This document shows positions 4,727 to 53,373 of a DNA stretch of 61,021 bases, in pieces. The notes beneath the pieces are model-generated. The model was not told the origin of the DNA. It ran no database searches and saw only the letters and a program-made list of their open reading frames with translations. How positions within the stretch are numbered: the stretch's first letter is position 1; every line of letters starts with the position of its first letter. The stretch comes from a virus. A program made the position numbers and the translations under genes. The stretch is from positions 1-61,021 of the IMG/VR virus record IMGVR_UViG_3300032309_000977; one strand, given 5' to 3'.

Positions 4727-5269
4727 ATGCAAATACTCGCTGGAATTGGTTCTGCGGAAAGTACACCAACACCAACGCTGTCTAGTAGTGGTGACCTTGG
4801 CTCGATAGTTACCACCATTACTAACTACGATTCAGCAGCCACATACTATGTAAGTACAACTGCTGGTAGCGCAAGTCGCAGTGGTGCAACTATTACTGTT
4901 TCTGGACTAAATAACTCCCAATCAGCAACTGTAAGCGTATACGCTACAAAACCTGGGTTTAACAACTCAGCAACTGCAACATCTTCCGCCACCGCCATAC
5001 CTGGTTGTACGTATACAGGTTCTGGACCTAATGAAATTGCTGGTGGAAACTGCGGTACTTGTGGAATTATTTGTTGCGAATCTGGTGTCCCAGCCTATGA
5101 GTTCTGCACAAACTACTACAGCCCAAGTACCTGTAACTTAAACGGAACTAAGATAACAACTGGTTCGTATTCCTACCCTTGTGTTGGTTGGTACTGCCTT
5201 ACTACAGGCACGGGTTCTGGTCTATCTTGTGGACCTGGGACTATATGTGGTGGTGTGAACGGTTGTTAA
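4727..5269 (+). CDS. Ig-like, Cys-rich appendage protein (cassette copy A)
   Basis: A 180-residue protein. Residues about 15-95 form an Ig/fibronectin-like domain (ITNYDSAATYYVSTTAG, then TITVSGLNNSQSATVSVYATK). The last 85 residues are Cys- and Gly-rich with about 14 Cys, including GGNCGTCGIICC and PCVGWYCL. The proteins at 16892 and 30905 have the same two-part build and share NCGTCGI-type and GWY.C motifs. The Cys density suggests a disulfide-stabilised, outward-facing tip, possibly a receptor-binding or decoration domain (inference). It directly follows a fibre gene and precedes a small DGEV-type gene, the same order as at 30 kb. Confidence 0.75.
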   Translation: MQILAGIGSAESTPTPTLSSSGDLGSIVTTITNYDSAATYYVSTTAGSASRSGATITVSGLNNSQSATVSVYATKPGFNNSATATSSATAIPGCTYTGSGPNEIAGGNCGTCGIICCESGVPAYEFCTNYYSPSTCNLNGTKITTGSYSYPCVGWYCLTTGTGSGLSCGPGTICGGVNGC

Positions 5270-8679: not shown

Positions 8680-9975
8680 ATGGCTCAGAAGTTTCTAACT
8701 AATATTGACCTCAACCAGAATCAACTGGTCAACGCTAAATTTGAGGTTTTGGGCACTGACCCATCAAGTGGCAACTTTGAAGGCCGCCTTATCTATAACA
8801 GCACTGAAGACACCATCAAGGTGTACTCAGGTAGCGCATGGCGCAAAATGCTTCATGCCGTACAATCCAGTGGTACATACTCCACTGCTCTTAGCGTTAG
8901 TGAGTCTAACGGTACAATAAGCCTTACCTTAAACCTTGCTGACACTAGCAACGCTGGTCTACTTTCTAGCACTTTTTGGAACCTTCTTAATGGTGCTACT
9001 GATGCCGCTACAGTCAATACACTTGCCAAACGTGATGGTAACGGCAATATTAGTGTTGCTACTCCTACGGCTGACGGTCATGCCGCAACTAAAGGTTATG
9101 TAGATGCCGCTCGTTCAGGTCTTGATGTTAAGCAGTCAGTTCGTGCCGCTACAACTGCTGCTGGAACCCTTACTACTAGTTTTGTAAACGGGTCAGTTGT
9201 TGACACGAACGTAACACTTGCTACTGGTGACCGAATCCTTATTAAAGACCAAGTAACTGCTTCTGAAAATGGTATTTACACAGTTAACGCTACAGGAGCA
9301 CCAACTCGTGCAACTGACTTTGACTCTAACGCAGAAGTAACTCCTGGTGCATTTACCTTTGTTGAAGAAGGTACTGTCAACGCAGACAGTGGTTGGGTTC
9401 TCACAAACAATGGCACTGTAAACGTAGGCGTTACAGGGCTTACATTTGCACAATTCTCAGGTGCTGGTCAAATTACAGCAGGTGCTGGTCTTACTAAGAC
9501 TGGTAACACTATTGATGCGGTAGGTACTTCTAACCGCATTACTGTAAACGCTGACAGCATTGACATTGCATCTACTTATGTTGGTCAAACCAGCATTACT
9601 ACTCTGGGTACGGTTGCAACTGGTACGTGGAGCGCAACAACCATTGCTGTTAACAAGGGTGGTACAAACGCAACAACGGAGTCTGGTGCTCGTACTAACT
9701 TGGCTTCAGCAGCATCAGAAGCAACTGGACGCACAACAAGCACTCCTTCCCTTGCTCGTATTGCCAAGCAGGGTTGTGCTGCAAGTAGCACAGGTGTTTC
9801 AACCACCACAGTTACCCATAACTTTGGAACAACTGATGTAAAAGTGGAGATTTATGAAGTCTCAACTGGTGCTACGGTAATTGGAGATGTAACCCGTTCA
9901 AACGGCAACACGTTGTCTATCGTACTTTACGGCACTATTGCTGCTAACGATTACACTATCGTTGTAGTAGGTTAA
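8680..9975 (+). CDS. Tail fibre protein
   Basis: A 431-residue fibre protein with AAGG before ATG 8680. N-terminal MAQKFLTNIDLNQNQLVNA is a common fibre attachment opening. Middle motifs LAKRDGNGNISV and TADGHAATKGYVDAARSG, then KQSVRAATTA, GDRILIKDQVTASENGIYTV and QITAGAGLTKTGNTID, are familiar from cyanophage and other myovirus fibre repeats. The C-terminus is a small beta tip. The combination is confidently a long or short tail fibre; receptor specificity cannot be read. Confidence 0.85.
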   Translation: MAQKFLTNIDLNQNQLVNAKFEVLGTDPSSGNFEGRLIYNSTEDTIKVYSGSAWRKMLHAVQSSGTYSTALSVSESNGTISLTLNLADTSNAGLLSSTFWNLLNGATDAATVNTLAKRDGNGNISVATPTADGHAATKGYVDAARSGLDVKQSVRAATTAAGTLTTSFVNGSVVDTNVTLATGDRILIKDQVTASENGIYTVNATGAPTRATDFDSNAEVTPGAFTFVEEGTVNADSGWVLTNNGTVNVGVTGLTFAQFSGAGQITAGAGLTKTGNTIDAVGTSNRITVNADSIDIASTYVGQTSITTLGTVATGTWSATTIAVNKGGTNATTESGARTNLASAASEATGRTTSTPSLARIAKQGCAASSTGVSTTTVTHNFGTTDVKVEIYEVSTGATVIGDVTRSNGNTLSIVLYGTIAANDYTIVVVG

Positions 9976-16891: not shown

Positions 16892-17461
16892 ATGCCGTCT
16901 ATTAACCGTAATACACGAGGTGGAATATCCGTATCTGGCGGTAGTTTAGCCCCCAGAACTGATAGAGCAGGTACTGGTCAAGTAGATACAAGGTGGGTTG
17001 GTGCATTGCCACCATTTACAACACCAACATTAAGCGCATATTCGTATGGTGCTAACGGAGCATTTCAATTTACTATTACAAACTATGATGCGACTGCAAC
17101 ATATATACTTGCAACAACCGCAGGAACTATTGCTAGGACAACAAATACTGTAACTGTTTCTGGTTTGTCTAATGGTCAAACAGCAACGGCCTCTGTAACT
17201 GCACAGAAGTCTGGGTTTTCTAACTCAGCCACAGCAACCGTGGTTGGACAAGCAAAACCTGCATGTGTTTCTTGTGGTGCTGGAACAGTTGGAACTGAAG
17301 GGTGCAATGGTGCAACCTGTGGGATTATTCCTTGTGGTTCAGGGTCTTGTCCTGCATATGACATTGTTTATTACAATAATCCTTCACCTAATCCGTGTGT
17401 TGGATGTGCTGCGTCTATCGGTGGATGGTATTGTTGTGGGTGCGGTGGAGCCTGCGGATAG
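16892..17461 (+). CDS. Ig-like, Cys-rich appendage protein (cassette copy B)
   Basis: A 189-residue protein: an extended N-terminus (about 45 residues), an Ig-like domain (ITNYDATATYILATTAG, then TVTVSGLSNGQTATASVTAQK), then a Cys-rich end with about 14 Cys, including CVSCGAG, CNGATCGIIPCG, CPAYDI and GGWYCCGCGG. It is the middle of three related proteins (4727, 30905). The Ig part is more similar between this copy and the 30905 copy (RTTNTVTVSGLSNG shared) than to the first. Its TAG serves as part of the -10-like TAGGAT of the next gene. Confidence 0.75.
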   Translation: MPSINRNTRGGISVSGGSLAPRTDRAGTGQVDTRWVGALPPFTTPTLSAYSYGANGAFQFTITNYDATATYILATTAGTIARTTNTVTVSGLSNGQTATASVTAQKSGFSNSATATVVGQAKPACVSCGAGTVGTEGCNGATCGIIPCGSGSCPAYDIVYYNNPSPNPCVGCAASIGGWYCCGCGGACG

Positions 17462-30904: not shown

Positions 30905-31420
30905 ATGATTCCTGGAATCGTTTCTGCTTCAGGAGCAATAGGTCTTGACACTCCTACACTAAGTACTGCTTCAGGTGCTTATGGTGGCTTTACCTTTACT
31001 ATCACTAATTACGATTCCACCGTTACCTATGTACTGAGTACAAACTCAGGAAGTATTTCACGAACAACCAACACAGTTACTGTGTCTGGTTTGTCTAACG
31101 GTTCGTCTGCTACTGCATCAGTTACTGCTACTAAAACTGGCTACCTAAACTCAACAACGGCAACTAGAACTGGTACCGCATACCCAACCTGTTCATACAG
31201 TTCTTCGTATACGACTACAGAAGGTGGTAACTGCGGTACTTGTGGAATATTTGGAGGTGGGCAACCATCGTCAATCTCTTGTTACGACATACTTCACTAT
31301 GTAGCAAGCAACGCTCCATGTATGCAGGGAACTACAGTTATTACCAGTGAATGGACCTCTATTGGTGGTTGGTACACCTGTGGTGGTTCATGCTGTGCAA
31401 CCTGTGGAACTCTTTGTTAG
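30905..31420 (+). CDS. Ig-like, Cys-rich appendage protein (cassette copy C)
   Basis: A 171-residue protein of the same build as those at 4727 and 16892: Ig-like domain (ITNYDSTVTYVLSTNSG, then TVTVSGLSNGSSATASVT) and a Cys-rich end (GGNCGTCGIFGGG, then CYDILHYV and GGWYTCGGSCCATCG). It follows the fibre gene with three bases between, like the first cassette. This copy is placed between the capsid and connector genes, so it may decorate the head or neck, or be a transferred fibre unit. No ribosome site precedes it, which suits translational coupling. Confidence 0.75.
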   Translation: MIPGIVSASGAIGLDTPTLSTASGAYGGFTFTITNYDSTVTYVLSTNSGSISRTTNTVTVSGLSNGSSATASVTATKTGYLNSTTATRTGTAYPTCSYSSSYTTTEGGNCGTCGIFGGGQPSSISCYDILHYVASNAPCMQGTTVITSEWTSIGGWYTCGGSCCATCGTLC

Positions 31421-48942: not shown

Positions 48943-48976
48943 GGAGGAGGAAGAAAGGAGGTAAAAAGCCTCCTCC
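48943..48976 (+). other. Structured leader with perfect Shine-Dalgarno inside hairpin
   Basis: GGAGGAGG pairs with CCTCCTCC, or AGGAGG with CCTCCT across a 7-base loop. AAAGGAGGT at 48954-48962 is a perfect ribosome-site sequence yet has no start codon nearby. The 124-base gap at 48931-49054 also holds CCTCA..TGAGG and a GGCATGCC palindrome, but I see no gene in it. Confidence 0.45.
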
Positions 48977-49054
48977 AACCCACACCCTCAAGGCATGAGG
49001 ACAGGCATGCCAGAACAAAGTGTAGCACGCAACAATCAGACTGAGGATAGGCAT

Positions 49055-49573
49055 ATGACAAAAAAATCAAGCAAGTTTGGTGGACCCTTTTTACCGTTCC
49101 CTAGGTGGGCACTTGAGTACCTACAGGGTGACGATGTTGGAATTGTAGTTTTAGTAACAATTCTGCAATACATGGATTCTGATACTCAGGAGTTAACTAC
49201 TTCGTACCAGTGGATTGGGAAGTTGATTAAACGGGATAGGCGCACAGTTATCCGTGCCATGAACCGTCTGGTTTCTATTGGGGTCATTTATCGGACCCCT
49301 AGGGTTGGAAAGAAAGGGAGCCTTTCCAATCGCTACTTGGTCAACTTTAATAATCCAAATGTGAATAAAGAAATGACATCTAAGAAGACCCCAGTGTCAC
49401 GGGTGACACCCCCCCTAGTGTCACTGGAGACACTACCTAGTGACACGGGTGACACTCCCCCCAGTGTCACGGGTGACACCCAATCAAGAATAACCAATAA
49501 CAAGAATAACTCTTTCAAGAAGGGAACCGAAGGGATTGACCCTCGTTTAAAGAGGAAAAAGGATAATGGCTAA
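49055..49573 (+). CDS. Winged-helix replication initiator-like protein
   Basis: A 172-residue protein. I chose ATG 49055 with GAGGA at 49043-49047, over an in-frame ATG at 48995 with no such site. Residues about 10-100 form a winged helix: FPRWALEYLQGDDVGIVVL, then ELTTSYQWIGKLIKRDRRTV, then IRAMNRLVSIGVIYRTP and a wing with KGSLSNRYLVNF. That is the layout of the lambda O/plasmid Rep N-terminal DNA-binding domain. Residues about 114-142 are Pro/Thr/Val-rich, and their codons hold the four iteron-like repeats. Then comes a polar basic end. Downstream are the helicase loader and helicase genes. Confidence 0.78.
   Translation: MTKKSSKFGGPFLPFPRWALEYLQGDDVGIVVLVTILQYMDSDTQELTTSYQWIGKLIKRDRRTVIRAMNRLVSIGVIYRTPRVGKKGSLSNRYLVNFNNPNVNKEMTSKKTPVSRVTPPLVSLETLPSDTGDTPPSVTGDTQSRITNNKNNSFKKGTEGIDPRLKRKKDNG
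49394..49479. repeat. Four iteron-like repeats inside the initiator gene
   Basis: Four units based on GTGTCAC-N2-GTGACAC start at 49394, 49418, 49440 and 49464 (spacing 24, 22, 24 bases). The first and last are identical perfect palindromic pairs; the second has GAGACAC as its right arm, and the third has GTGACAC in both positions. The following bases 49481-49522 are AT-rich. Confidence 0.8.
49394..49522. other. Candidate replication origin
   Basis: The iteron array, followed immediately by an AT-rich stretch (about 70% A+T) inside the initiator gene, has the layout of the lambda O gene origin: protein-binding repeats, then a melting region. Upstream lies the winged-helix DNA-binding domain; downstream are loader, helicase and primase genes. 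This is a prediction from arrangement. Confidence 0.55.
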
Positions 49574-49955
49574 GAAGCAACCAGCAGACGACTGGGGCAC
49601 AGCACTAGGACAAAGCCCCGAAAAGGAGACACCAGTGATTAAGACCAGCACCGTAGGACTTCCCTACTATTTTAGGGATGCGCTACCAGCAAACATGTCA
49701 AGCCTGTACTCAACGATTAACGGTCCTGCATTGTCTAAAGGTTTTTCCCATATGCGTGCACAAGGGCTAACTACCGAAGATATCAAAGCAACCATTGACA
49801 AATTCATGCAGGACATTGTTGCTAAACCGTTGCCAAGCCATGTTGTACCTTGGAGAGGCTTCCTTGCTCGGATTGACGAACTTGTTTCATGGTCTAAGAC
49901 AAACCAAGCAGAGGATTTTACTTCTTACAAAATTGACCCAAGGTTGAAAAAATGA
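49566..49955 (+). CDS. Hypothetical replication-region protein
   Basis: A 129-residue protein that overlaps the initiator gene by 8 bases. It starts disordered (DDWGTALGQSPEKETPV), then has a helical core (GFSHMRAQGLTTEDIKATID, then KFMQDIVAKPLPSHV and PWRGFLARIDELVSW). I see no known family. By place (between initiator and helicase loader) it could bridge the two, like an adaptor or the C-terminal part of a split initiator (inference). Confidence 0.6.
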   Translation: MAKKQPADDWGTALGQSPEKETPVIKTSTVGLPYYFRDALPANMSSLYSTINGPALSKGFSHMRAQGLTTEDIKATIDKFMQDIVAKPLPSHVVPWRGFLARIDELVSWSKTNQAEDFTSYKIDPRLKK

Positions 49956-50155
49956 AAGAGTTTTGGAACAAGTTCTTTGGAAAAGTCAATGACCTGTCAT
50001 TAAACGACTACGACTTAGATGAATACACATGTGAACTATGTAACGTTGTTTTCTCTGAGTACAACAAGTATCTTCTACACTTCGCAAAAGAGCAATGTGT
50101 ATTAGTTTTTACAGGACTACCAGACAGATTAGAAATTAGGTTGAAAGATGAGTGA
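49952..50155 (+). CDS. Small zinc-finger-like protein
   Basis: A 67-residue protein in an ATGA overlap. It carries YTCELCNVVFSEYNKYLLHF, then AKEQCVL: a C-x2-C ... H-x5-C arrangement reminiscent of a C2HC finger. The N-terminal end is helical (EFWNKFFGKVNDL). It could bind nucleic acid or a replication partner. Its stop overlaps the helicase loader start. Confidence 0.6.
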   Translation: MKEFWNKFFGKVNDLSLNDYDLDEYTCELCNVVFSEYNKYLLHFAKEQCVLVFTGLPDRLEIRLKDE

Positions 50156-50795
50156 GTGGAAAAGCGCAAAGTATTGGAAGAACCGTCCAGTAGCAGAACG
50201 TCTAGACAACTTAAAGATTCCTCGTAGGTACAAAAACACCACTATGGATACATACAATCCAAAGATTGGTGATAATAATGCTTACGAAGCACTTCTTACT
50301 TGGAAACAAGAAGCACTTACGCACATCTCCGAAGGCATGGGTCTTTTTATTTATGGAGATTCAGGAGTAGGTAAAACTCACCTTGCCCAAGCCTTGCTTA
50401 AAGACCTTGTTACTGAACACACATTGAGCGGAATGTTTATCCCAACAACAACTTACATTGAGATGATGTATGACGAAATCCGCAATGATGGGGAATTGCC
50501 AGAAGAATACGCAGACCAAAACGTGGCTAAATACCTTCGCCGTATTTACGATGTTGTCGTACTGGATTCACTAGGTGAAGAACATGACAGTGACTTTACA
50601 AAGCGCTCATTGATGTCATTCTTAGAGAACCGATACAATTGTAAATTGACAACCATTATTACTTCTAACCTAAGTCCAATGCGTATCAAGTCTCGTTACG
50701 GTGAACGCTTCCATTCAATTTTACACGACTGCTGTATGTCTATTCCAGTTCTTGGGGACAACCAAAGGATTACACAAGACTATGCAGGGCAATGA
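50148..50795 (+). CDS. DnaC-like helicase loader (AAA+)
   Basis: A 215-residue AAA+ protein: FIYGDSGVGKTHLAQALLK (Walker A near residue 70), VVVLDSLGEEHDSDF (Walker B near residue 138), TIITSNLSPMRIKSRYGERF (sensor 1 and the Arg-containing turn). It has the length and motifs of DnaC/IstB-type loaders, which open and place a DnaB ring on DNA. Its partner helicase is encoded at 51225. It lacks the usual long N-terminal DnaB-binding arm and instead has about 60 residues of basic helices. Confidence 0.88.
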   Translation: MSEWKSAKYWKNRPVAERLDNLKIPRRYKNTTMDTYNPKIGDNNAYEALLTWKQEALTHISEGMGLFIYGDSGVGKTHLAQALLKDLVTEHTLSGMFIPTTTYIEMMYDEIRNDGELPEEYADQNVAKYLRRIYDVVVLDSLGEEHDSDFTKRSLMSFLENRYNCKLTTIITSNLSPMRIKSRYGERFHSILHDCCMSIPVLGDNQRITQDYAGQ

Positions 50796-51225
50796 CCTAC
50801 TAGATTTTTCATCTGTTACGCAAGGCGTGATTTTTGAAGGAGTCTTAGCAATACCACCAACTAATACAGTTGCTTCAACAAAGGCTGCATTTTTTAAGAA
50901 CCGTGAAAATTGGTCAGCGTATTTGCGTCTGTGGGAACCAAATGAGTTACCACTTAAAGCAATGATAGATAGTGCAACACGCTTAGGTGTTGGTACAGAT
51001 GTGTACACTTTTGTCTCACAAGGTTTTGCAGAAGAAGTAGATAAATGGTTGATGCGTAAAGGAATCTCAGTCGCAGTCCTGTACTATGGCTCCGTTGAAG
51101 AACTCGCATATGATTTACGGTTTCAACGACAAATTAGGACAATATACACAGCAACAGAGGAACAGGCATCCGTAATCGGAATCCGTTCTCATGTTGTTGA
51201 CCCAAAGAAAGCATGGATTTCATAA
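50782..51225 (+). CDS. Hypothetical protein, HAD-like layout
   Basis: A 147-residue protein; ATG 50782 is the start in line with an overlap of the preceding gene end. It has VTQGVIFEGVLAIPPTNTVA, then KAMIDSATRLGVGTDVYTFV, then EEVDKWLMRKGISVAVLYYG and IRTIYTATEEQASVIGIRS. Strand-helix order recalls HAD-fold phosphatases, but the DxD motif is missing, so the enzyme role is doubtful. It sits between the loader and the helicase. Confidence 0.6.
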   Translation: MQGNDLLDFSSVTQGVIFEGVLAIPPTNTVASTKAAFFKNRENWSAYLRLWEPNELPLKAMIDSATRLGVGTDVYTFVSQGFAEEVDKWLMRKGISVAVLYYGSVEELAYDLRFQRQIRTIYTATEEQASVIGIRSHVVDPKKAWIS

Positions 51226-52481
51226 TGGCTAGTGCCGAACACTTACTCATTAGTAAGGTCATTAACGACAACGACATCTCACATGTTGTTGAGGCTGGTA
51301 TTCGTCCTAACCACTTCAGCCCACAATGGGAAGGAGTTTGGTTGTGGGTATTGGATTACTGGAGGACGCATGCCGCCATTCCAAGTATTCGTGCACTTAA
51401 CCAAGAGTTTGCCGACTTAGAACTTGCGGATTCAAACCGTGAACAGTTCTCCAATCTGATTGACGAGGTACTCAACTCCTACCGTCACCAGAAGTTAGTT
51501 GAGACTATCTCATCAGCAATGCCACTGCTGAATAACAACAGCACCAATGAAGCAATTCAAATGCTCTCAGATGGTTTGCAGACAGCCTCTGCTGAGGTGG
51601 CTCGTCTTCGTGACGTTGACTTGATTCAGTCATGGGAAGAACGTATTGCTCGTTACAACCTAATGAGGGAAACACCTAATGCTATTCGTGGTATCCCTAC
51701 AGGCTTTACTGGGTTAGACAGGATTACTGCTGGCCTTCGTCCACAACAATTGATTACTTTTGTGGGTGAAGCAAAGAAAGGTAAGTCACTCATTACCTTG
51801 ATTATTGCTAATGCAGTTCACACACACGGCAAGGTTCCAATGTTCATCTCATTTGAAATGAGTATTGAGGAACAGGCTGCTCGTTATGACGCCATTGTTT
51901 CTAACATTTCTCACACCAAGATTATTCGTGGAGACCTGACTAAAAAAGAAGTTGAAAAGATTGAGACAACACTTCGCATGCGTAAGAACATGCACCCATT
52001 CTTGATGTCAGAAGACAGTTCATCTTTGACAACCGTAAGCGCCATTGCTGGCAAGATTCAACAACACCGTCCAGACATGCTGATTGTTGACGGTGTGTAC
52101 CTCATGGATGATGAGCAAGGAGAACCAAAGGGTTCACCACAAGCGCTCACCAACATCACTCGTTCTTTGAAGCGCATTGCACAGCGCTTTGATATTCCTA
52201 TCATTGGAACTACACAGGTACTTGGTTGGAAGTTGGGGAATAAGAAGTCACGCAAGATTACGGCAGACTCAATTGGTTACACCTCGTCATTCTCTCAAGA
52301 CTCTGACTTGGTTATCGGTGTTGAGTCTGACCCTGATATTGATAATCAAGCAATCTTGCGTGTAGTACTTGCTCGCTCTGCCCCAATGGGCGAAGTCAAG
52401 ATTAAATGGGACTGGGAAAACATGGACTTTTCGGAGGTATTTGAGGATGAGTCAGGCGACAGCGACGACTGGTATTACTGA
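51225..52481 (+). CDS. dnaB: DnaB-like replicative helicase
   Basis: A 418-residue protein; I chose ATG 51225 (TAATG with the previous stop) over ATG 51213. The N-terminal part is a DnaB-like helical domain (EHLLISKVINDNDISHVVEA). The RecA-like motor has GFTGLDRITAGLRPQQLITF, FVGEAKKGKS (Walker A), FISFEMSIEEQAARY, MLIVDGVYLMDD (Walker B) and IIGTTQVLGWK. The end is acidic and disordered (EDESGDSDDW). It unwinds DNA at the fork and pairs with the primase encoded right after it. Confidence 0.9.
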   Translation: MASAEHLLISKVINDNDISHVVEAGIRPNHFSPQWEGVWLWVLDYWRTHAAIPSIRALNQEFADLELADSNREQFSNLIDEVLNSYRHQKLVETISSAMPLLNNNSTNEAIQMLSDGLQTASAEVARLRDVDLIQSWEERIARYNLMRETPNAIRGIPTGFTGLDRITAGLRPQQLITFVGEAKKGKSLITLIIANAVHTHGKVPMFISFEMSIEEQAARYDAIVSNISHTKIIRGDLTKKEVEKIETTLRMRKNMHPFLMSEDSSSLTTVSAIAGKIQQHRPDMLIVDGVYLMDDEQGEPKGSPQALTNITRSLKRIAQRFDIPIIGTTQVLGWKLGNKKSRKITADSIGYTSSFSQDSDLVIGVESDPDIDNQAILRVVLARSAPMGEVKIKWDWENMDFSEVFEDESGDSDDWYY

Positions 52482-53373
52482 CCTACCGAACATTCTTCGT
52501 TCAATCGGAGTAGATGTTCGTAAGGAAAATGGAAAAGAGATTGTGGGCTGTTGCCCTGTGCATGAAAAGCGCACTGGTAAAGCAGACAGGTCTCCATCAT
52601 GGTCAATGAATAGCACTAATGGGCTATGGATTTGTCATTCCTGTGGTGCTCGTGGAAACCTACCTATCCTCGTATCAGAGGTAACAGGTGAGACTGACGC
52701 AATTATGGCGGTGCATAATCTCATCATTAGTGCAGGTCTTAATCAATTACAGAACCCAGTGTTTGATAACACCCCAGCCCAGCCAGTGGACTGGCTTACC
52801 TTCAGCGCCTTTGAAAAGCCACCAGTAGAAGAACTGACTAATCGTAGGATTACCAAAGAGGCTTCCGATGAATATGGGCTTAGGTGGAATACATCTAGGC
52901 AAGCGTGGGTTTTGCCTATCGTTTCACCATTAGGAGAATTATGGGGCTGGCAGGAAAAAGGTACGGACTACGTTCGCAACTACCCAGTAGGTATAACCAA
53001 GAGTCACACTTTATTTGGGATTGAGCGTTTTAGGAGTAGCACTGTAGTACTAGTGGAGTCACCACTGGACGTAGTTAGGTTTGCCTCATCTTTTTCAGGA
53101 GTGCAGTGCCTATCTAGTTTTGGAGTGAACGTAAGTACACAGCAGTTACATCTACTGGCTTCTGTAGCCAACAAGTTAATCGTTGCCCTAGATAACGATG
53201 TGGCTGGATTGACTAAGAGTAAAGAATTATTTAAAGTTATGCCTTTGTTTAGGAAAGGCGTATGTTGGTTTGACTACAACGGGACAGATGCAAAGGATAT
53301 TGGGGAAATGACAGATTCTGAAATTGAGGTTGCTTTGAGCGCCTCCTCGGTTATACCTTGGTGGGTGCAATGA
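52447..53373 (+). CDS. DnaG-type primase (CHC2 zinc finger and Toprim)
   Basis: A 308-residue protein; I chose ATG 52447 with GGAGGT eight bases upstream, overlapping the helicase end by 35 bases. Zinc site: GCCPVHEKRTGK, then WICHSCGARGNL. Toprim: VVLVESPLDVVRFASSFSG (Glu) and KLIVALDNDVAGLTKS (DxD). The catalytic middle (WVLPIVSPLGELWGWQEKG) is shortened compared with bacterial DnaG. It makes RNA primers for the fork. Confidence 0.88.
   Translation: MSQATATTGITDLPNILRSIGVDVRKENGKEIVGCCPVHEKRTGKADRSPSWSMNSTNGLWICHSCGARGNLPILVSEVTGETDAIMAVHNLIISAGLNQLQNPVFDNTPAQPVDWLTFSAFEKPPVEELTNRRITKEASDEYGLRWNTSRQAWVLPIVSPLGELWGWQEKGTDYVRNYPVGITKSHTLFGIERFRSSTVVLVESPLDVVRFASSFSGVQCLSSFGVNVSTQQLHLLASVANKLIVALDNDVAGLTKSKELFKVMPLFRKGVCWFDYNGTDAKDIGEMTDSEIEVALSASSVIPWWVQ

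Follow-up and report, generated by a model that had tools for sequence, protein, structure and literature searches.

Replication origins in which the iterons lie inside the initiator gene itself have already been described for phage lambda, the Stx phages, P22 and phage L (PMC7466680, PMC8022706). The O protein of lambda and the Stx phages binds in dimeric form, and its binding does not depend on the AT-rich part of the origin, which is needed for unwinding (PMC7466680). The O-like proteins of lambda, P22 and L each have their own iterons within coding regions (PMC8022706). The lambda record contains four iterons in gene O, at spacings of 20, 24 and 23 bp and in mixed reading frames.

Here we analyze a 61-kb virus record, referred to in its entirety as the window, for which an earlier note had proposed a lambda-like origin within a predicted initiator gene. 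Comparison with related genomes supports such a layout, in which in-gene iterons are followed by A-rich DNA and by genes for a helicase loader and a helicase. On the sequence evidence presented below, we give a probability of about 0.82 to the reading that the array is the phage's replication origin, of the lambda type and placed inside the gene of its own initiator.

The iteron array and its flank

The array consists of four 16-bp units at spacings of 24, 22 and 24 bp, the first and fourth of which are identical (Table 1), as the earlier note had described. The inner AC..GT of the unit it had given, GTGTCAC-N2-GTGACAC, varies among relatives, and comparison with these relatives gives a conserved unit of GTGWC-N6-GWCAC, a pair of 5-bp half-sites separated by 6 bp. 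The 61-kb window contains no other instance of this word, and its Markov copies contain a mean of 0.3 single sites; a four-unit array was found in 0 of 200 such copies. When 3 mismatches are allowed, the four matches in the window are an unremarkable count, so the evidence lies in the array and not in the number of matches.

Copies 1 and 2 are read in the register GTG TCA CGG GTG ACA C, while copies 3 and 4 are shifted by one base, because the middle step of 22 bp is not a multiple of three. As a result, copy 1 encodes VSRVT and copy 4 SVTGDT, although the two are identical in DNA. This frame change was absent from the earlier note. In the third frame, the iteron as it stands in the window would contain a TGA stop.

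Table 1. Positions of the initiator gene, its iterons and the neighboring replication genes in the window.
Feature	Position	Strand	Sequence	Evidence or remarks
O-like replication initiator, 172 aa	49055-49573	+		Profile matches, AlphaFold model, start-codon evidence
Iteron 1	49394-49409		GTGTCACGGGTGACAC	GTGTC-ACGGGT-GACAC; frame 0 (VSRVT)
Iteron 2	49418-49433		GTGTCACTGGAGACAC	GTGTC-ACTGGA-GACAC; frame 0 (VSLET)
Iteron 3	49440-49455		GTGACACGGGTGACAC	GTGAC-ACGGGT-GACAC; frame 1 (SDTGDT)
Iteron 4	49464-49479		GTGTCACGGGTGACAC	16-mer identical to iteron 1; frame 1 (SVTGDT)
A-rich flank, candidate unwinding element	49480-49535	+	Starts CCAATCAAGAATAAC	63-64% AT
129-aa helical protein	49566-49955	+		Overlaps initiator gene by 8 bp; ends IDPRLKK
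DnaC/DnaA-like AAA+ helicase loader	50148-50795	+		phrog_50, 5e-34; IstB/Bac_DnaA Pfam
DnaB-like replicative helicase	51213-52481	+		PF03796, 3e-31
DnaG-type primase	52369-53373	+		CHC2 zinc finger, Toprim

The claim that AT-rich DNA directly follows the array stands in part. The step from the GC-rich array (62% GC) into the flank is sharp, falling within the top 0.25% of window positions, and the A-rich start of the flank is conserved: in 30 of 39 relatives the array is directly followed by CCAATCAAGA, which is read in two frames, and in the rest by CCAAA variants. The flank is nonetheless only moderately AT-rich: positions 49480-49560 are 63% AT (46% A, 17% T) against 57% for the window, and its duplex weakness ranks at about 12% of the window, which is weak in absolute terms and a point against the origin reading. 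In relatives, the first 50 bases past the array are mostly 64-77% AT, the values for L063 and L065 referring to a spurious fifth unit.

The initiator and its genomic neighborhood

The initiator most likely starts at 49055 and not at 48995, given an SD-like GAGGAT upstream and relatives that start at the same place. It comprises a winged-helix DNA-binding domain (approximately residues 10-100), a disordered linker containing the iterons and a short C-terminal tail, IDPRLK. The full protein matches PHROG families of O-like and replication initiation proteins with E-values down to 1e-11, and it still matches O-like families when its linker is removed (phrog_391, 1.7e-9; phrog_270, 2.9e-9). By these profiles it belongs to the O-like winged-helix phage initiators (PHROG 391/270/8540). 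The AlphaFold model is confident for the winged helix over residues 10-100 and has pLDDT values below 50 for residues 103-158, the stretch encoded by the iterons, which is Pro/Thr/Ser-rich and predicted to be disordered. The profile matches and the model bear out the placement of the units within a winged-helix initiator-like gene.

Membership of the lambda O family was considered and rejected: a Pfam search gave no match to PF04492 (Phage_rep_O), and hhalign detected no homology to lambda O (E 0.34). Among solved structures, only generic winged-helix regulators matched. The initiator also lacks a C-terminal domain of the size found in lambda O, which counts against a lambda-type origin.

The recognition helix spans residues 61-67 (DRRTV in the window), and the residue after its conserved Arg varies with the half-site, being Arg or Ser in initiators with GTG.. 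half-sites and Ile (L032) or Thr (L063, L067) in those with GTA.. half-sites. A swap at this residue could possibly reflect a change in specificity, of which there are only two independent cases. The start of the gene is flanked by a 19-nt inverted repeat with 84% identity (48960-48978 and 49077-49095), the left arm of which carries a GGAGG..CCTCC hairpin.

The initiator gene is followed, in this order, by genes for the 129-aa protein, the helicase loader, the helicase and the primase. Synteny of the 129-aa protein gene is kept in relatives, and in Streptomyces phage LuckySocke a homologue is encoded directly upstream of the DnaC-like gene. The model of this protein is all-helical and gave no significant fold match, the best viral one being to a replisome organiser; the protein is a candidate for the second part of a replisome organiser that has been split in two. 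The initiator and the 129-aa protein have similar tails (IDPRLKR.. at 49540-49573 and IDPRLKK at 49930-49955, respectively), and most relatives have [IV]D.RL in both tails, which are alike within a clade (for example, VDGRLL/VDDRLL in L056 and VDERLK/LDGRLQ in L062). A form of this motif survives in the initiator alone in the L019 clade. The common tail suggests that the two proteins may share a docking partner.

The wider context is that of a myovirus with a family A polymerase and RecA, as had been stated, and a tail sheath and baseplate J are also present. Cumulative GC skew, which the earlier note had put forward as a check, has its minimum at 9344 and none at the array, and is uninformative about the origin, given that almost every gene is on one strand. 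A scan for sigma-70 promoters found nothing. Elsewhere in the window, the ORF list includes three similar proteins with a repeat domain and a Cys-rich end (4727-5269, 16892-17461 and 30905-31420), apparently paralogues, as well as a product (1212-1898) that by eye resembles a 2OG-Fe(II) oxygenase (HxD...H pattern).

The iterons are conserved as DNA

An alignment-guided scan of viral contigs identified 53 loci representing approximately 38 distinct genes, nearly all of which carry units in the corresponding linker, the equivalent place at which the earlier note had suggested looking. The number is usually four, with three units and a degraded fourth in L022 and L025 and five units in L056 and L058. 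Every unit fits GTnnn-N6-nnnAC, although the unit finder demanded terminal GT and AC with at most 1 arm mismatch, and the fixed ends and N6 are thus partly imposed. Half-sites are mostly GTGTC or GTGAC, with GTATC in L032 and GTAGC or GTAGT in L063, L065 and L067. Across the 38 relatives, units are spaced 22-30 bp apart (18 bp once, in L056/L058), in patterns such as 24/22/24, 22/24/24, 30/22/24, 30/23/25 and 22/24/23, and frame patterns include 0011, 0111, 1101 and 0110. When mapped on an N-terminal domain tree, in which several deep forks are weakly supported, frame patterns group by clade, with at least 6 changes overall. At one locus (L053:5001-5500), a single iteron is left and the rest of the initiator is out of frame and meets stops, with the downstream gene intact; this could be either a real deletion between iterons or an assembly collapse.

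A blastn search of cultured phages with the region gave no match. The nearest cultured relatives by terminase and DnaB are the Streptomyces phages LuckySocke and BRock, which have the loader operon but no O-like gene or array adjoining it, a point against the origin reading. The window record may be a fragment, since relatives reach 97 kb.

To what extent the units are a property of the DNA as opposed to the protein can be seen from the synonymous-codon null. With the protein fixed, the three perfect units of the window were reached in 0 of 20,000 synonymous redraws, and across the 38 genes a mean of 2.8 perfect units was observed against 0.04 expected; the weakest cases, L062 and L064, have one perfect unit each, reached by approximately 3% of redraws. 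Among relatives, six different 16-mers are found in two reading frames, where they encode unrelated peptides. Between the clades in which copy 2 lies in frame 0 and frame 1, this copy has a mean DNA identity of 0.70 and a peptide identity of 0.05; for the same clade pairs, the winged-helix domain has a DNA identity of 0.54, and 0.32 at third positions.

Taken together, the codon null, the frame switches and the copy-2 identities strongly support the earlier proposal that the DNA signal drives the protein sequence, with selection preserving the DNA signal and not the protein text. A linker peptide that was kept while the palindromes were lost had been named as the case that would argue otherwise; we found the opposite, a DNA word that is kept and a peptide that is lost. 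As the linker is disordered, the protein would tolerate whatever peptide the signal spells, and selection could keep the DNA word while frame and amino acids drift. The locus is a clear natural case of a regulatory DNA signal dictating protein sequence, in which 16 bases are kept and frame and peptide change.

The same word occurs in divergent initiators

We also conducted a homology-free search for two tandem GTGTC-N6-GACAC units in a viral collection and in bacterial and archaeal genomes. This recovered at least 119 viral stretches and 52 in the bacterial and archaeal genomes. In the viral collection, the scrambled half-sites CTGTG/CACAG gave 0 matches and an N7 spacer gave 14, a single scrambled word being a small control set. 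Clustering by the protein sequence that precedes the first unit placed 95 of the stretches in the cluster of the window gene. Among the matches listed for this main cluster, units occur in more than one frame in 67 of 75 distinct ORFs, and in all three frames in 9 of them. The three frames of the word read as VSxxTP, (S/G)VxxDT or GCHxRH. A T before GACAC, which would create a stop in frame 2, is found in 0 of 9 frame-2 units and in 144 of 262 units in other frames, again among the matches listed.

From the divergent carriers, 34 representatives were chosen, leaving out spurious-looking ORFs; after removal of the linker, a replication-initiation profile is matched by 24 (24/34 is not a rate for all matches), Pfam HTH_36 likewise by 24, true Phage_rep_O by three and RepA_N by one. 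The N-termini of these initiators share only about 15-25% identity, and the carriers include prophage-like loci from Deltaproteobacteria, Alphaproteobacteria, Ruminococcus (RepA_N type) and Planctomycetes. Many other genome matches lie in ORFs that show no initiator features and may reflect chance or palindromes of another kind. Array architecture varies as well: a Ruminococcus initiator-like gene (L229:5255-6586, also L222) contains six to seven units with a constant spacing of 24 bp, each read in the same frame to give GVKTDTT repeats, where other arrays mix their frames, and seven-unit arrays in L097, L099, L113 and others have 23-bp steps and cycle through all three frames within one linker.

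The earlier view of the iteron as this phage's own sequence does not survive this survey, as the half-site GTGWC is common to dozens of phages, including some with very divergent initiators. GTGWC-N6-GWCAC could be an old origin word, widely shared by divergent winged-helix phage initiators and carried in their linkers in any frame, a tentative reading to which we give slightly under even odds. If it is true, a large proportion of phage origins would rest on one recognition mode, and the word alone would be enough to locate origins in unassembled viral dark matter.

Origin function and alternative explanations

In the origin reading, each 16-bp unit would be occupied by a dimer of the winged-helix initiator, each GTGWC half-site taking one wing-helix. 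Half-site starts are 11 bp apart, or one helical turn, and the palindromic units and their N6 geometry are consistent with dimer binding. Four bound dimers, approximately two turns apart, would assemble into a complex resembling the O-some, melting would occur in the A-rich DNA on the right of the array, and the 129-aa protein and the DnaC-like loader would bring the phage's DnaB helicase and primase. The array might instead be an operator through which the winged-helix protein regulates its own operon, with replication starting elsewhere. The initiator fold is that of MarR/SlyA/CodY-type regulators and binding within the gene could block transcription, but the sequence families are replication initiators and not repressors, the neighbors are a helicase loader, a helicase and a primase, and a conserved A-rich element follows the array. 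We consider this unlikely, though operator and origin roles can coexist. A partition (centromere-like) site bound by a TubR-like protein is very improbable. The weak fold matches of the initiator include TubR, a winged-helix protein that acts in segregation by binding DNA repeats; however, no TubZ or other partition NTPase was assigned among the chosen genes searched and the ORF list, the family matches are O-like and the operon is a replication operon.

Two further explanations dispense with a DNA-binding protein. RNA hairpins in the mRNA could be the selected feature, given that the array transcript folds more stably than shuffled sequences (z -3.4), although this follows for any array of palindromes. 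Pairing combinations are in mild excess (52 against approximately 43 expected from unit counts). In 24 of 76 distinct units, however, A-A or T-T at arm position 4 breaks the stem with GTGWC kept, G-U replacement is not used in the arms, and compensatory changes were not seen across relatives. Half-sites read in DNA by a protein explain the arm variation better than a hairpin, which we rate as very improbable, on a level with the partition site. The palindromes could, finally, be a by-product of simple low-complexity coding, as the Pro/Thr/Ser-rich, disordered linker would suggest. This explanation is contradicted by the synonymous-codon null and the frame test and refuted by the relatives in which palindromes are kept and the peptide is lost, and its probability is close to nil. 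With the origin reading, the locus indicates where a group of uncultured phages would have their origins, and it may also reveal an iteron word common to many phage initiators.

Comparison with known origins

We found no account in the literature of the GTGWC-N6-GWCAC word or of iteron frame switching, which is weak evidence of absence; it appears to be undescribed that the frame in which a conserved iteron is read changes repeatedly, and that very divergent initiators have a half-site and spacer in common.

Among described systems, the PLE/ICP1 RepA_N initiator is similar in that the specificity of its N-terminal DNA-binding domain covaries with semi-palindromic iterons (PMC8263062), but these are intergenic and consist of three ~30-bp repeats. 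Vibrio phage D77 gp39 (O-like/HTH_36) has a homologous winged helix (hhalign probability 96.5%) and linker repeats of the AGTGAY...RTGTCACC type; it differs in having arms approximately 5 bp apart, a long C-terminal domain and no adjacent DnaC-like gene in its record. The gene 18 origins of P22 and phage L likewise combine O-like initiators and in-gene repeats with a phage DnaB-type helicase (PMC8022706), and, as described, are set apart by different repeat sequences.

The closest parallel is the lambda ori in gene O, together with those of phages 21 and DE3 and the Stx phages, where approximately four palindromic iterons spaced 20-24 bp lie inside the initiator gene (PMC7466680). As in lambda, the linker that carries the iterons here follows a DNA-binding domain of the winged-helix type, the frames are mixed and A-rich DNA lies on the right. 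In contrast, lambda iterons have TCCCTC-type arms, lambda O is 299 aa long and has no detectable homology to the 172-aa initiator, and the loader here is DnaC/DnaA-like and not P, in a phage that has its own DnaB and primase. In our best reading, this locus would work like the lambda ori, even though its protein is not a detectable homologue of lambda O.
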